DNA from: Actinomadura physcomitrii
GTDB taxonomy: Bacteria; Actinomycetota; Actinomycetes; Streptosporangiales; Streptosporangiaceae
DNA: 64,000 nucleotides
Assembly (NCBI RefSeq): GCF_008923205.2
Contig: NZ_WBMS02000002.1
Coordinates: 1 to 64,000 of the forward strand
Direction of reading: 5' to 3'
A program made the translations under genes and the position numbers. Positions 1 to 61,090 of the stretch are shown piece after piece. The notes below the pieces were generated by a model. It searched no databases. It saw only the letters and a list, made by a program, of their open reading frames with translations, and was not told the origin of the DNA. How positions within the stretch are numbered: position 1 is the stretch's first letter; every line of letters begins with the position of its first letter.

Positions 1-600
1 GCCAAGCCGGCCGGGCCCGACGACCGCCGGGACGTGGCCGAGCGGACGGCGGCGGCGCTGTCGAGTGTGCTGTCGGGCGGGCACAAGGCCTCCAAGGTCA
101 CCGTCATCTGCGACCTGGAGACACTGACCGGCGGCAACGCCCCCGCCCGCCTCACCGACGGCACCCCCATCCCCGCCGCCCAAGCCCGCCGCATCGCCCT
201 GGCGGCGGGTGTCTCCCCGCTGCTGCTGGGGCGCGGGAACACCCCGCTGTACCTGGGCTACCGGGAACGCTTCGCGAGTGCTGCCCAACGCCAAGTCCTC
301 GAAACCCTCTACCCCTCCTGCGCGGTGCGGGGATGCGAGATGCCGGGCACGCTGTGCGAGGTCGACCACGTCCACGGATGGGCACTCGGCAGCCCCACCG
401 ACATCGACCAACTCGCCCTCACCTGCGGATGGCACAACCGGTTCAAACACACCAGCCCCGACCAGATCCACATCACCAAGGATCCCGACGGGCGGTACGT
501 CTACCGGCTGCTCCCACCGGCCCACGCCCGAGCCGCGACAGGGACGGGACCACCCGGCGGCACCGGCCCACCCGACGACCCCCTCGACTGGGCCGCATAA
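1..600 (+). CDS. HNH endonuclease-domain protein, C-terminal part (13E12/DUF222 type)
   Basis: The reading frame is open from the first base, so the gene starts upstream of the window and only its last 199 codons are here. The end carries an HNH nuclease fold: a Cys pair around CAVRGCEMPG, then CEVDHVHGW, then LTCGWHNRFKH, giving the His-Asn-His metal and catalytic set. This layout is that of the multicopy actinobacterial 13E12-repeat proteins, in which a DUF222 domain precedes the HNH module. The family is presumed to cut or nick DNA and tends to sit in variable regions, but its biological role is not settled. About 1 kb without genes follows, then an IS element, which fits an accessory patch. 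The internal GTG at 34 is not needed as a start. Confidence 0.85.
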   Translation, partial: AKPAGPDDRRDVAERTAAALSSVLSGGHKASKVTVICDLETLTGGNAPARLTDGTPIPAAQARRIALAAGVSPLLLGRGNTPLYLGYRERFASAAQRQVLETLYPSCAVRGCEMPGTLCEVDHVHGWALGSPTDIDQLALTCGWHNRFKHTSPDQIHITKDPDGRYVYRLLPPAHARAATGTGPPGGTGPPDDPLDWAA

Positions 601-1271: not shown

Positions 1272-1446
1272 GGGTGGTGGGGTGGCGCGACCCGGGGGCG
1301 GGGCAGGCGGAGCCTGCCCCTATCACCTGCCCAGGGGCCGCAGAGGCTCCAAAGTCAAGGGTGGACGAAGTCCATCGCGAAGCGACGCCGAAGGCGCCCT
1401 TGACTTTGGAGGGGCGGCCCCGTACGCAAGCGCCACCCCACCACCC
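1272..1446. repeat. nested hairpin element with GNA triloops
   Basis: A 175-bp stretch bounded by a perfect 16-bp inverted repeat (1272-1287 with 1431-1446). Inside, on the + strand, is a 9-bp hairpin (1300-1308 with 1312-1320, loop GGA), then a composite stem: 1334-1341 with 1414-1421, a small internal loop, and a perfect 15-bp stem CTCCAAAGTCAAGGG at 1347-1361 with 1397-1411. That stem closes exactly on three abutting mini-hairpins with no unpaired base between them: TGGAC-GAA-GTCCA (1362-1374), TCGC-GAA-GCGA (1375-1385) and CGCC-GAA-GGCG (1386-1396). All four loops are GNA triloops closed by C-G, a motif known to be unusually stable in single-stranded DNA. The sequence is noncoding. It could be a nonautonomous mobile element, a protein-bound repeat or a structured RNA. 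Confidence 0.8.
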
Positions 1447-1613
1447 GAACACCCCTCTTGCCAATCAAGCAACACCCTCTCGAAGGGCACCTGACATCCG
1501 TGAGCGACCAGGAAAGCCTTACAGGGACGTCTACTAACCCAATGGAGAGCGCGCAGTGAGTAGGGCCGATTTGGAGCAAGGCAAGCCAGAGCAACGCGTC
1601 CGGCAAACGATTA

Positions 1614-1632
1614 CTTAGCCTGAATCCACCGC
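1614..1632. repeat. left end of the IS: flanking CTTAG and terminal inverted repeat
   Basis: CTTAG at 1614-1618 is repeated directly outside the other end at 3316-3320. The terminal repeat CCTGAATCCACCGC (1619-1632) matches the complement of 3302-3315 at 13 of 14 positions. Because CTTAG is close to its own complement, the pentamer could be a target duplication or partly an extension of the inverted repeat. Confidence 0.8.
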
Positions 1633-3315
1633 TCGGCATTCGGCGGTGAAGGCGTCCCGAACATGACGATGCCCTCCGGCCTGGGAGGATGGGAGTTCCT
1701 ACGCTTCCATGCACCCGGATCGAGAGGGCTCGTCGTAAGTGCGATTGTCTCACGCTGCCGGTAAGACCCATGTGGTGTTCGATGACGAACGGTTGATCTC
1801 GTGTGCGGGGCTGGTGCCGGTGATGCGGCTGGCCGAGCGTTGCGGCCTGCCGGACCTGGTGAGCGAGCACGTCCGGGTCGCCGACCGGTGCGGGGCCAAC
1901 GCCGCGGCGAAAGTGTCCTCGATCGTGGCGGGGATGGCCGCGGGCGCCGACTCGATCGACGACCTGGACGTGCTGCGGCATGGCGGCATGACCAAGGTGT
2001 TCGACCAGATCCGGGCGCCGTCCACGCTGGGCTCCTTCCTGCGCTGCCTGCGGTGGGGGAACGTCCGCCAACTGGAGAAGGCCGGGCGGGAACTGCTGAA
2101 CGGCCTGGCCGCGCACACGCCGCTGCTGCCCGGTGCCGGCGCGCTGGCGTTCCTGGACGTGGACTCGATGCAGCGGCGGGTGTACTCGGCCCGCAAGCAG
2201 GGCGCCGGGTTCGGCCACACCAAGATCCAAGGCAAAAGTGTGCTGATCCGTGGCCTGAACACCCTGGCCGCAACGTTGTGCACGCCGCTGGCCGCCCCGG
2301 TCATCACCGCGACCAGGCTGCGCGGCGGGACGGCGTCCTCAGCGCGCGGCGCCGACGCCCTGGTCGCCGAGGCGATCGGCACCTCCCGCCGATGCGGGGC
2401 CACCGGGCTGCTGGTGATGCGCGGCGACTCGGCGTTCTACTCGGCCAAGGTGATCGCCGCGTGCCGCCGCAACGGGGCCCGTTTCTCGGTCACCGCGAAG
2501 ATGGACCCCAAGATCAAGACCGCGATCGCCGCCATCCCGGCGGACGCGTGGACCGCGATCCGCTACCCCAACGCGATCTTCGACGAGGAGTCCGGGCAGT
2601 GGATCTCCGACGCCGAGGTCGCCGAGACCACCTACACCGCGTTCGCCTCCAAGAAGACCCCGGTGACCGCCCGGCTGATCGTCCGCCGGGTCCGCAGGCT
2701 CAACCCCACGGCCCCCACCGGGCAGGACGAACTGTTCAAGGTGTGGCGGTATCACGCGGTCTTCACCGATTCCCCGTTCGAGATGCTGCAGGCCGAGACC
2801 CAGCACCGCGACCACACCGGCGCCATCGAGCAGACCTTCGCCGACCTCACCGACGGGCCCCTGGCCCACCTGCCCTCCGGCGACTTCGCCGCCAACGCCG
2901 CCCGGCTCACCTGCGCCGCCATCACCCACAACCTGCTGCGCGCGGCAGACTGCCTGGCCTCGGCGCTCCACGCCAAGGCGCGCGGTGCGACGCTGCGCCG
3001 TCACCTGATCGACCTCCCGGCCCGCCTCGCCCGGCACGGACGTGGCCATCTCACCCTCCACCTGCCCGAGCACTGGCCCTGGGCACCCGCCTGGCGGGCG
3101 GTCTTCGACACCGTCCATCCGCCGCCAACAGCAGCGGCCTGACCAGCCCCGATCCGGTCACCGCACCCTCGACGACCACCACGGTCACCCCGCCCAGAGC
3201 CCTCCGACCGCCAGCCTGTGGACAAGCCGCACAAACAGTGAGCGGCGAGCCAAACACACCCGAAACCGCGAGAAATCCGCCTGCCGATCACCCAAACTCA
3301 CGCGGCGGATTCAGG
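1619..3315 (+). mobile_element. IS1380-family insertion sequence, apparently complete
   Basis: The element is 1697 bp, which suits IS1380-family members. It has 14-bp terminal inverted repeats with one mismatch (1619-1632 and 3302-3315), flanking CTTAG pentamers, and one long transposase gene that fills most of it. No internal stop or frameshift is visible, so it may be functional. It adjoins a multicopper oxidase stub at 3317-3574. The rest of that oxidase is not on the far side, so either the host gene was already truncated or a deletion followed insertion. Confidence 0.88.
1739..3142 (+). CDS. IS1380-family transposase
   Basis: A DDE-type transposase of 467 residues, about the normal length for the family, that would move the surrounding element by cut and paste. 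The amino-terminal part (VFDDERLISCAGLVPVMRL) and the region around FLDVDSMQRRVY, where the first catalytic Asp is expected, are typical. GLLVMRGDSAFYS supplies the second Asp. The C-terminal third (HRDHTGAIEQTFADL) holds the expected catalytic Glu. The start is GTG at 1739; no strong ribosome-binding site is visible, and an in-frame start further upstream cannot be excluded. The gene lies in the same orientation as the HNH fragment but is separated from it by the gene-free patch. The frame is intact throughout. Confidence 0.9.
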   Translation: MRLSHAAGKTHVVFDDERLISCAGLVPVMRLAERCGLPDLVSEHVRVADRCGANAAAKVSSIVAGMAAGADSIDDLDVLRHGGMTKVFDQIRAPSTLGSFLRCLRWGNVRQLEKAGRELLNGLAAHTPLLPGAGALAFLDVDSMQRRVYSARKQGAGFGHTKIQGKSVLIRGLNTLAATLCTPLAAPVITATRLRGGTASSARGADALVAEAIGTSRRCGATGLLVMRGDSAFYSAKVIAACRRNGARFSVTAKMDPKIKTAIAAIPADAWTAIRYPNAIFDEESGQWISDAEVAETTYTAFASKKTPVTARLIVRRVRRLNPTAPTGQDELFKVWRYHAVFTDSPFEMLQAETQHRDHTGAIEQTFADLTDGPLAHLPSGDFAANAARLTCAAITHNLLRAADCLASALHAKARGATLRRHLIDLPARLARHGRGHLTLHLPEHWPWAPAWRAVFDTVHPPPTAAA

Positions 3316-42410: not shown

Positions 42411-42444
42411 ACCGTCCCCCGGCTCACCCGCGAAGCCTCGGACG

Positions 42445-42665
42445 TACGGCGTGCATGGCAGGTCTTCGGACTCGCGGGCGCCGCGCCTCCCGCCGGAGGC
42501 ACGACCTACTGGCCGTCGCTTCCCGATCCGGACGTCCCGGTTCAGTGCCTGTGACGGCGGTCGTTCCCGCTCACCGCTGCGGGGCAGTCCCGGACTCGCA
42601 CCGGGTTCCCTCTTGCGACGCCCCCGCCGCGAGCGGCGGGGGCGAACCAGCACGGGATTGAACCC
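42445..42665 (-). promoter_or_regulatory. cobalamin riboswitch upstream of nrdAB
   Basis: Read on the minus strand, the leader contains the conserved cobalamin core in order: GGGAACCCGGTGCGAGTCCG, then GGGACTGCCCCGCAGCGGTGAG, then the B12-box-like GCCAGTAGGTCG near 42510, and a closing GACCTGCC segment near 42455. A strong GC stem (about 42620-42645) lies near the 5' side. Binding of adenosylcobalamin is expected to shut off nrdAB, as known for Streptomyces nrdABS. Confidence 0.88.
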
Positions 42666-42774
42666 TACATCTTGTTGATCCACATTGCGCAACCCCAACA
42701 TGTAGGGCGGGTCGGGACCGGATTGCGGGGGTCGGGTGCGGCCGGCCGGACTGAGGTGGGACGATGTCCCCGTC

Positions 42775-52475: not shown

Positions 52476-52999
52476 TTACCTGAGATGTGAGCGAATGTGA
52501 GTATCCGCTGTCCAGTTAGCCGTCGCTTGTGCGGCGGCGGTCCCGGTCTGATCCACGCGGGGCGTGGTGCCGGGTTCCTGCTTCACGGGCGGTCGCCCGG
52601 CGGGGCCGGGTCTGACATCGCCTCCACAGGCGTTTTGCCTCTCCGCCCCACTGGCGGCGAGGTCACGCAGGTTGATCGCGGCGTTGACGTCCCTGCCCAG
52701 CACCAGGCCACAGCCGTCGCACCGATAGGTCCGCTCGGACGGCGACAGGCTTGGCTTTCGCCCGCCGCAGCCCGAGCAGGTCTTCGAGGACGGGAACCAG
52801 CGGTCGGCCACGATCAGGCGTCCGCCGTTCCATCCGGTCTTGTAATCCAGCATCCGTCGGACGGCCCCGAATCCCTGGTCGGCGACCGCGCGGGCGAGCC
52901 GCCGGTTGGCGAGCATGCCGGTGACGTTGAGGTCTTCGACCACGACGGTCTCGTAGCGGGCGGCCAGGTGCGTGGTGGCCTTGTGCAGCGCGTCGGCGG
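52476..52999 (-). pseudogene. TnpB (IS605/IS607-type) remnant, C-terminal part with right end
   Basis: About 170 codons of a TnpB RNA-guided nuclease survive. They start near DALHKATTHLAARYETVVVEDLN, containing the RuvC-II Glu, and run through the zinc ribbon CSGCGGRKPSLSPSERTYRCDGCG and the RuvC-III Asp in GRDVNAAINL. The N-terminal half is missing: upstream the frame loses all similarity. The conserved tail, GPAGRPPVKQEPG, and noncoding-type sequence to about 52480 match the other remnant at 60594, including the right end around CATCTCAGG. In intact elements this 3' part encodes the guide RNA. The remnant cannot make an active nuclease but might still give an RNA. Confidence 0.78.
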
Positions 53000-60593: not shown

Positions 60594-61090
60594 AAAGCCA
60601 CCACGCATCTGGCGGCCCGGTACGAGACCGTGGTTGTGGAGGACCTCAACGTCACCGGGATGGTCGCCAACCGGCGGCTCGCCCGCGCCGTGGCCGATCA
60701 GGGGTTCGGGGCCGTGCGGCGGATGCTTTCCTGCAAGACCGGTTGGAACGGTGGCTGCCTGGTCGCGGCCGATCGTTGGTTCCCTTCGTCCAAGACCTGC
60801 TCGGGCTGCAGTGAGCGAAAGCCAAGCCTGTCGCTGTCCGAGCGGACGTTCCGGTGCGACGCCTGCGGCCTGGCCCTGAACCGCGATGTCAACGCCGCGA
60901 TCAATCTGCGAGACCTCGCCGCCAGTGGGGCGGAGAGGCAAAACGCCTGTGGAGGCGAGGTAAGACCCGGCCCCGCCGGGCGACCGCCCGTGAAGCAGGA
61001 ACCCGGCACCACGCCCCCCGTGGATGAGACCGGGACCGTCACGGCGCAAGCCGCGACTGCCTGAGACTCGCACTCGTGCAGCCTCAGACA
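60594..61090 (+). pseudogene. TnpB (IS605/IS607-type) remnant, second copy
   Basis: About 155 codons of TnpB, starting KATTHLAARYETVVVEDLN within a few codons of the point where the other copy starts, and continuing through CSGCSERKPSLSLSERTFRCDACG and NRDVNAAINLRDL to the shared GPAGRPPVKQEPG tail. DNA identity with the copy at 52476 is high, including the ends (ACTCGCACTCGTGC and GCCTCAG against the similar end there). Both keep the 3' part that in intact elements overlaps the guide RNA. It lies right after the RDD gene and upstream of a two-component system. Confidence 0.78.

Follow-up and report, generated by a model that had tools for sequence, protein, structure and literature searches.

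Inverted hairpin pairs with a conserved three-lobed tip as probable single-stranded DNA-folding ends of actinobacterial gene cassettes

Several described systems place palindromic or folded DNA at dispersed sites or around genes. REP sequences and BIMEs, with their RAYT proteins, are dispersed palindromes that occur in inverted pairs and probably fold as single-stranded DNA (ssDNA); MITEs and composite transposons have inverted ends around cargo and lack a transposase of their own; and integron attC sites are folded ssDNA sites bordering gene cassettes, with one site per cassette. The 3' overhang of the Streptomyces telomere is reported to fold into hairpins whose GCA loops are closed by sheared G:A pairs, and is likened to the 'rabbit ears' of parvoviruses (PMC4513846). 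The REP13E12 repeats of M. tuberculosis are gene conversion hotspots according to one study (PMC13061034), and in another, REP13E12/HNH/DUF222 repeats emerged from a screen for variable elements (PMC10589994).

The locus described here lies in a window of 64,000 nucleotides that forms the start of contig C23 in the 9,998,048-base genome of Actinomadura physcomitrii (G000); genomes G001 and G062, used in comparisons below, belong to the same genus. Sequence comparison and folding of window positions 1272-1446 placed every described piece of a nested hairpin at its expected position (Table 1). The outer inverted repeat pairs perfectly, albeit over 17 bp rather than the 16 bp given in a first-pass annotation, whose 9-bp GGA-loop hairpin and composite stem are both in place. 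The former recurs in many Actinomadura copies, among the matches listed, and the latter runs into three contiguous mini-hairpins at 1362-1396 with zero unpaired bases. Folded as DNA, positions 1260-1460 reach -77.3 kcal/mol (z = -9.99), which none of 200 shuffles equalled, and folded as RNA the same region gives z = -8.25. A descriptor of three contiguous C-GNA-G hairpins, with gaps of at most 1 nt and a closing stem of at least 7 pairs, has 185 matches in 1.31 Mb of partly overlapping loci that had been selected for the element. Relaxed to a closing stem of 5 pairs, it has none on either strand of three Markov-1 randomisations of these loci.

Table 1. Features of the hairpin and the adjoining gene, in window coordinates
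Feature	Position	Strand	Partner, basis and remarks
3' part of DUF222/HNH-type nuclease gene, cargo of the unit	1..600	+	5' part precedes the contig start
Inner side of the outermost arm of the terminal hairpin	1272..1288	+	17-bp perfect pairing with 1430-1446; sequence, fold
9-bp hairpin with C-GGA-G loop	1300..1320	+	Sequence, fold
Stem GGGGCCGC	1334..1341	+	Partner 1414-1421; sequence, fold
15-bp stem	1347..1361	+	Partner 1397-1411; sequence, fold; inner 11 pairs in the covariation test
Core matching covariance model R1	1351..1407	+	85.0 bits; the window is one of R1's own sequences
Mini-hairpin 1, TGGAC-GAA-GTCCA	1362..1374	+	Fold; helix 2, two-sided changes in 5/5 pairs
Mini-hairpin 2, TCGC-GAA-GCGA	1375..1385	+	Fold; helix 3, two-sided changes in 3/4 pairs
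Mini-hairpin 3, CGCC-GAA-GGCG	1386..1396	+	Fold; helix 4, two-sided changes in 2/4 pairs
Outward half of the hairpin (3' stem arms)	1397..1446	+	Fold; end variants compared
Outer GGGTGTTCG unit	1446..1454	-	Other ends often repeat degenerate copies outward

These hairpins are very probably the ends of cassettes. The copy search proposed in the first-pass annotation returned many copies, as a covariance model of the core (R1; 57 positions and 24 pairs, built on 22 sequences) has 25 matches in the window genome, ruling out a one-off curiosity, and the window element has 40 scored matches there, many of them broken up or lying where contigs end. Retrieval with an exact 34-base core pattern gave 69 loci from four Actinomadura and two Amycolatopsis species. 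Two hairpin copies lie no more than 5 kb apart in 22 of these loci, and all 22 pairs are inverted (minus, plus) and enclose a DUF222 gene (tblastn with the protein of locus L037, overlapping matches removed). A further 22 of the remaining 47 loci are uninformative, with an inner side below 300 bp; the other 25, with an inner side of at least 300 bp, have a DUF222 match in 20 cases, and the five without one are all from Amycolatopsis. One end lacks its tip in three of the 22 Actinomadura pairs (L038, L057 and L058). With such tip-less ends included, hairpin-end sequence lies within ~1.7 kb of 12 of the 13 DUF222 matches in the window genome. The hairpin-bounded Actinomadura unit takes the form of two inverted copies around a DUF222/HNH-type gene, spanning ~2-2.5 kb.

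The window itself carries part of such a unit. The protein encoded at positions 1-600 shares 93% identity with residues 224-401 of its full-length counterpart in L037, and matches Pfam PF02720 (E 2.8e-6) and, below the cut-off, HNH (PF01844, E 0.026). Since this is the 3' part of the DUF222 gene, window 1272-1446 is the right-hand end of a hairpin-bounded unit, whose left end falls outside the contig, and does not stand alone. The element of the first-pass annotation is thus refined to one of two inverted unit ends, and its placement between an HNH gene and an IS has to be corrected, because the HNH-type gene belongs to the same unit as the hairpin. Beside the hairpin, an Rfam match to Ms_IGR-7 (window 1620-1735, minus strand) lies just before a DDE_Tnp_1_4 transposase gene (1739-3142, plus strand), and this 'sRNA' may be an IS end.

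Ends of the same type extend far beyond Actinomadura. Matches to R1, whose E-values are rough owing to a short calibration and which was run with stricter filters in large searches, occur at E <= 1e-4 in 89 of 394 sampled genomes and 30 of the 137 genera of the class, while 16 genomes in a phylum draw of 296 match at E <= 1e-5, nine of them outside the class. The orientation of neighbouring copies no more than 4 kb apart was counted in five genomes, leaving out the window genome, which has no two copies within that distance. All 24 are minus-plus, comprising eleven in G206 (0.96-3.7 kb apart), ten in G001, two in G209 (457-460 bp), one in G447 (907 bp) and none in G187. G206, with 26 model matches, is probably a Streptomyces, as its hairpin is 90.9% identical to a Streptomyces plasmid copy and Streptomyces is the commonest genus among the plasmid matches. 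The cassettes hold a DUF222/HNH-type gene in Actinomadura, and other genes within ends of the same type in this probable Streptomyces. G206 has no DUF222 match genome-wide, and Pfam matches of the scanned open frames identify its cargo as a GDSL lipase with a DDE_5 transposase in one unit, an NmrA-type protein with an APH-type phosphotransferase, CYTH, GntR/UTRA (two units), NUDIX (two), HAD (two) and GNAT proteins, and unnamed proteins; no enzyme is common to the G206 units in these frames. The core matches 21 of 72,556 plasmid records, with named plasmids from Streptomyces, Nocardia, Kocuria, Pseudonocardia, Rhodococcus and a Mycobacterium. In the data examined, many of the hairpins in other genera stand alone, including those in four plasmid stretches where the model finds one each.

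The cargo of the Actinomadura pairs is the DUF222 gene. Three full-length proteins (423-425 aa) are assigned to DUF222 by Pfam (E 7e-22 to 2e-27), which does not list HNH in them. In 20 aligned proteins, a segment rich in Cys and His contains an invariant Asp-His pair and further His, and the middle Asn of the HNH motif reads as Gln in all 20; with its HNH score short of the Pfam threshold, the protein owes the name HNH to this motif. A PDB search up to E 1 found no sequence relative of the protein, NCBIfam and PHROGs searches returned no result, and its AlphaFold model has a mean pLDDT of 47.8. Of the linked nuclease or transposase gene that the first-pass annotation proposed to look for, a nuclease-type gene is found in every Actinomadura pair, and no transposase is common to the units.

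Hairpin ends and DUF222 gene are separable, but joined in Actinomadura. Of 17 hairpin-bearing genomes, 11 have DUF222 and six do not, and G209 has nine DUF222 loci (L265-L273) that share a repeat of ~1.3-1.5 kb at 85-91% identity and have no inverted hairpins. The gene thus does not always accompany hairpins, and hairpins can spread without it. A search that recovers the ends of L037 found no distant inverted repeat, at E 1e-5, around 19 DUF222 loci from four genomes including G209. Such independence would suit the possibility that the DUF222/HNH gene is a homing-type repeat, as in REP13E12, and mere cargo of hairpins that are moved by a trans-acting recombinase or DDE transposase. In its favour are the hairpin-less DUF222 repeats of G209 and the hairpin cassettes of G206, where DUF222 is absent, but DUF222 in all 22 Actinomadura pairs is more constant than random cargo would be. 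This possibility, which is entertained only tentatively, is compatible with the reading of the hairpins as ssDNA-folding cassette ends, of which it is one version. By description, the Actinomadura units share with REP13E12 a DUF222 gene, multiple copies and turnover within genomes, and are set apart by the hairpin ends that enclose the gene. The G209 repeat, at ~1.5 kb and without inverted ends, resembles REP13E12 as described.

Dispersed palindromes in inverted pairs, of a type suited to ssDNA, also resemble REP doublets, and the first-pass annotation had suggested a substrate of an HUH/RAYT-like transposase, such that an HUH (Y1) enzyme would recognise the hairpins as ssDNA and move the units. 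The enzyme data leave this very improbable. Y1 transposase PF01797 is missing from eight of the nine hairpin-bearing genomes tested, being present in G363, and there is no Y1 among the Pfam matches of the scanned unit proteins. It is found in two of ten comparison genomes, six of which have no BLAST match to the hairpin and four of which were not searched for it. Hence the REP/RAYT reading is largely refuted as far as PF01797 is concerned. The hairpins further differ from REP and BIME sequences in their three-lobed GNA tip and in enclosing genes. A REP-type GTAG/CGTC foot tag was seen in one of 20 cores, by a rough scan whose folds often reached the border of the excised sequence. The hairpins differ from MITEs and composite transposons in that no parent transposase was found and in that the ends, of up to ~200 bp, hold a conserved ssDNA-type fold, and from integron attC sites in forming inverted pairs and in their tip motif.

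The nearest structural parallel is the Streptomyces telomere, whose palindromes II and III form hairpins with GNA-type loops. The 3' side of the GNA strand points outward at both ends of a cassette, as it does in the telomere. However, the hairpins here are internal and paired, border cassettes of 0.5-3.7 kb, and have three contiguous lobes per stem, and the copies are not at the ends of linear replicons but inside long contigs, as in G187 and G447, each of which is one contig. The resemblance is accordingly best read as likeness and not membership. We could not find this actinobacterial hairpin family in Rfam or in the literature searched: searches of open-access papers, with subscription journals mostly outside their reach, showed no account of hairpins of this kind or of DUF222 cassettes with such ends. 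A phage packaging site, a packaging role being another use proposed in the first-pass annotation, was rejected, as an 88-base core query has no match in 50,697 phage records.

The conservation of the tip suggests that the hairpin is probably selected as folded single-stranded DNA. Firstly, its helices are maintained by compensatory change, as the first-pass annotation had anticipated. The test used 77 model-aligned matches, 70 of them distinct rows, taken from 66 chosen sources; here 95.8% of alignment cells pair and 16 of the 24 base pairs show two-sided changes. Two-sided cells number 226 against 71.2 in shuffles (as high in 0 of 500), whereas further pair types are less striking (38 against 34.1; 16 of 500), and these contrasts should be read in the knowledge that fitting the alignment to the structure biases it towards pairing, and that related rows inflate them. 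Sliding the partner by 1-3 columns lowers pairing to 26-51%. Secondly, the loops keep one form while their middle base varies. From 68 true-strand matches among 154 rows, leaving out opposite-strand matches and repeats, 65 parsed into three hairpins (the exceptions being L218, L226 and one in L197), giving 51 distinct tips. A GNA loop is present in 138 of their 153 hairpins, always with a C-G closing pair and with A (75), T (29), C (21) or G (13) as N; the other 15 comprise four GNNA loops (GGTA twice, GATA and GCCA), nine deviant loops and two that are probably mis-parsed GAA hairpins. Thirdly, G-U pairs, usually better tolerated in RNA helices, occupy two of the 886 cells that make up the three tip helices. 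Extra-stable DNA mini-hairpins follow a published rule, namely a GNA or GNNA loop with any N and at least two G-C pairs (PMC4686876). Judged by loop sequence, the 138 GNA and four GNNA loops of the 153 satisfy it. Hence loops that fit the DNA rule, a variable N and the rarity of G-U together favour selection on folded ssDNA.

The main competitor to DNA folding is that the hairpins are RNA terminators or insulators flanking accessory genes, acting on transcripts that leave the cassette. The GNA strand is the strand that transcripts exiting the unit would read at both ends, and the region folds strongly as RNA too. Nevertheless this is unlikely: a consensus scan found no T-tract terminator at the hairpin, bearing out the preference for ssDNA folding over termination in the first-pass annotation; the loops obey the DNA rule with all four bases as N, and G-U pairs are scarce; and a fixed three-lobed tip would exceed what termination needs. 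A known RNA family was rejected, as no Rfam family reaches its gathering score over the hairpin in the window, and four related loci, searched at E up to 0.1, gave only mir-4776 in L219, whose 33.7 bits fall well short of the gathering score (97). The hairpin is therefore neither unique nor a member of a catalogued RNA family, the two outcomes that the first-pass annotation had set against its own proposal.

Cassettes with these ends differ in presence between related genomes. The left flanking gene of L240, a G206 unit of ~2.3 kb, was searched in 150 genomes of the same genus, and 16 match at E <= 1e-160, G206 itself included. The empty sites sought by the first-pass annotation exist here: five relatives (L254, L256, L257, L258 and L260) lack the unit, with the aligned flanks ~30-85 bp apart and no hairpin found by the model. 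At the equivalent place L250 has a hairpin with different contents and L255 an insert of ~640 bp without similarity to the unit, while the right flank was not seen in L252, L259 and L261-L264. L251 and L253 have parts of the L240 cargo inverted beside the same left flanking gene, with no hairpin detected. In Actinomadura, a decayed gene lies next to the element that occupies the L038 site in G062, and G001 (L170) has an open reading frame running through that place and no element. Five other site groups each have units from several Actinomadura species in one neighbourhood.

The DUF222 gene tree of 23 units clusters by genome and not by site (G001 8/8, G062 11/11), and median gene identity is 88.9% within a genome, 81.4% at the same site in different genomes and 80.5% otherwise. 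Internal 3' spacers match in 52 of 84 same-genome pairs, one of nine same-site pairs from different genomes and one of 160 others, and 5' spacers in 77 of 84, one of nine and 13 of 160, the nine same-site pairs being a small sample. Among 15 chosen units, the two ends of a unit are 99.5% identical (median), and ends of different units 98.9% identical within a genome and 95.8% between genomes. The 300-bp outer flanks of same-genome units are unrelated save for one 23-base match. Neither a base-precise junction nor a target duplication was resolved in Actinomadura, where flanks are too diverged, or in G206, and hence no target duplication is claimed.

Some of these data would also be expected if the hairpins were immobile structured intergenic DNA of old, vertical descent, kept alike by ordinary gene conversion. 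Units at the same neighbourhood in several Actinomadura species fit this, as do ends near identity within a genome although the genes they bound differ by ~11%. It is nonetheless decidedly improbable, even slightly more so than transcript-level action, given the presence or absence of a whole G206 unit between relatives, the L038 unit set against an open reading frame in G001, the unrelated outer flanks, and the patchy distribution across sampled genomes. As units of several species share neighbourhoods, part of the turnover may be gene conversion and not movement. Two explanations fit the turnover: units may insert again and again at favoured sites, or gene conversion may replace them whole.

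Spaced GAACACCC repeats were found at 26 places in four of five genomes, and 23 of these lie within ~300 bp of a known hairpin end. The three without a known hairpin are at G007 C1 3515853, G001 C13 158465 and G062 C16 88616, the hairpin lists of G007 and G062 being incomplete for this comparison. A pre-existing insertion target was therefore rejected as the role of these arrays, which, given their closeness to the ends, look like part or products of them. On their outer side, many Actinomadura ends (such as those of L002, L004, L008 and L068) are followed by degenerate tandem units of ~24-26 bp with GAACACCC/GGGTGTTCG.

The ends thus keep a fixed inverted orientation and a tip conserved by compensatory change, units are present or absent between species, and whole units turn over within genomes. 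On balance, the favoured reading of the whole is that the hairpins are ssDNA-folding ends of mobile or homogenised cassettes. An end would become single-stranded through a nick, resection or replication, whereupon the strand running 5' to 3' outward would fold into a very stable three-lobed cap. This cap may serve as a recognition or protection feature in the cutting, copying or recombination of the cassette. The break that initiates copying of the unit may, in Actinomadura, be made by the HNH-type protein, and outside this genus another enzyme or host recombination would act in trans; that the HNH protein is the driver in Actinomadura is, taken as a claim of its own, a conjecture more open to doubt than the cassette structure. 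A broader and similarly speculative proposal is that these are phylum-wide mobile cassettes sharing only paired, outward, telomere-like ssDNA caps, moved by an enzyme, distinct from the known transposases, that reads folded DNA, with DUF222/HNH as one captured driver. If the favoured reading is right, the GNA rule from short oligonucleotides is used by widespread bacterial cassettes, there is evolutionary evidence for a functional ssDNA fold beyond telomeres and attC sites, and the much-expanded DUF222 family gains a concrete DNA partner in Actinomadura. R1 meanwhile provides a search model for accessory cassettes in actinobacteria, and the question of what reads the folded end becomes testable.

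Two kinds of altered end were also observed. Tip-less ends (L038 4388-4473, L057 3324-3409, L058 1321-1406, one in G000 C29, and G000 C23 158396-158489) are without the stem and tip, corresponding to approximately window 1321-1414, and keep their outer arms, which looks like deletion of the palindrome. In other copies an insertion sequence of ~1.6 kb lies within the first mini-hairpin, the hairpin halves overlapping by ~10 bases. BLAST coordinates place it at six places in three genomes, four of them in G002, and the four fetched loci are in G000 C19 (L184 1773-3553), G002 C1 (L185 and L187) and G024 C29 (L186). The one copy scanned with Pfam (L185) is IS4-like, and the IS seems to aim at the hairpin tip. 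Elsewhere in the window, Rfam identifies a cobalamin riboswitch (70.1 bits) at 42439-42666 on the minus strand, and two Transposase-2 RNA matches at 52515-52584 (minus strand) and 60992-61061 (plus strand).
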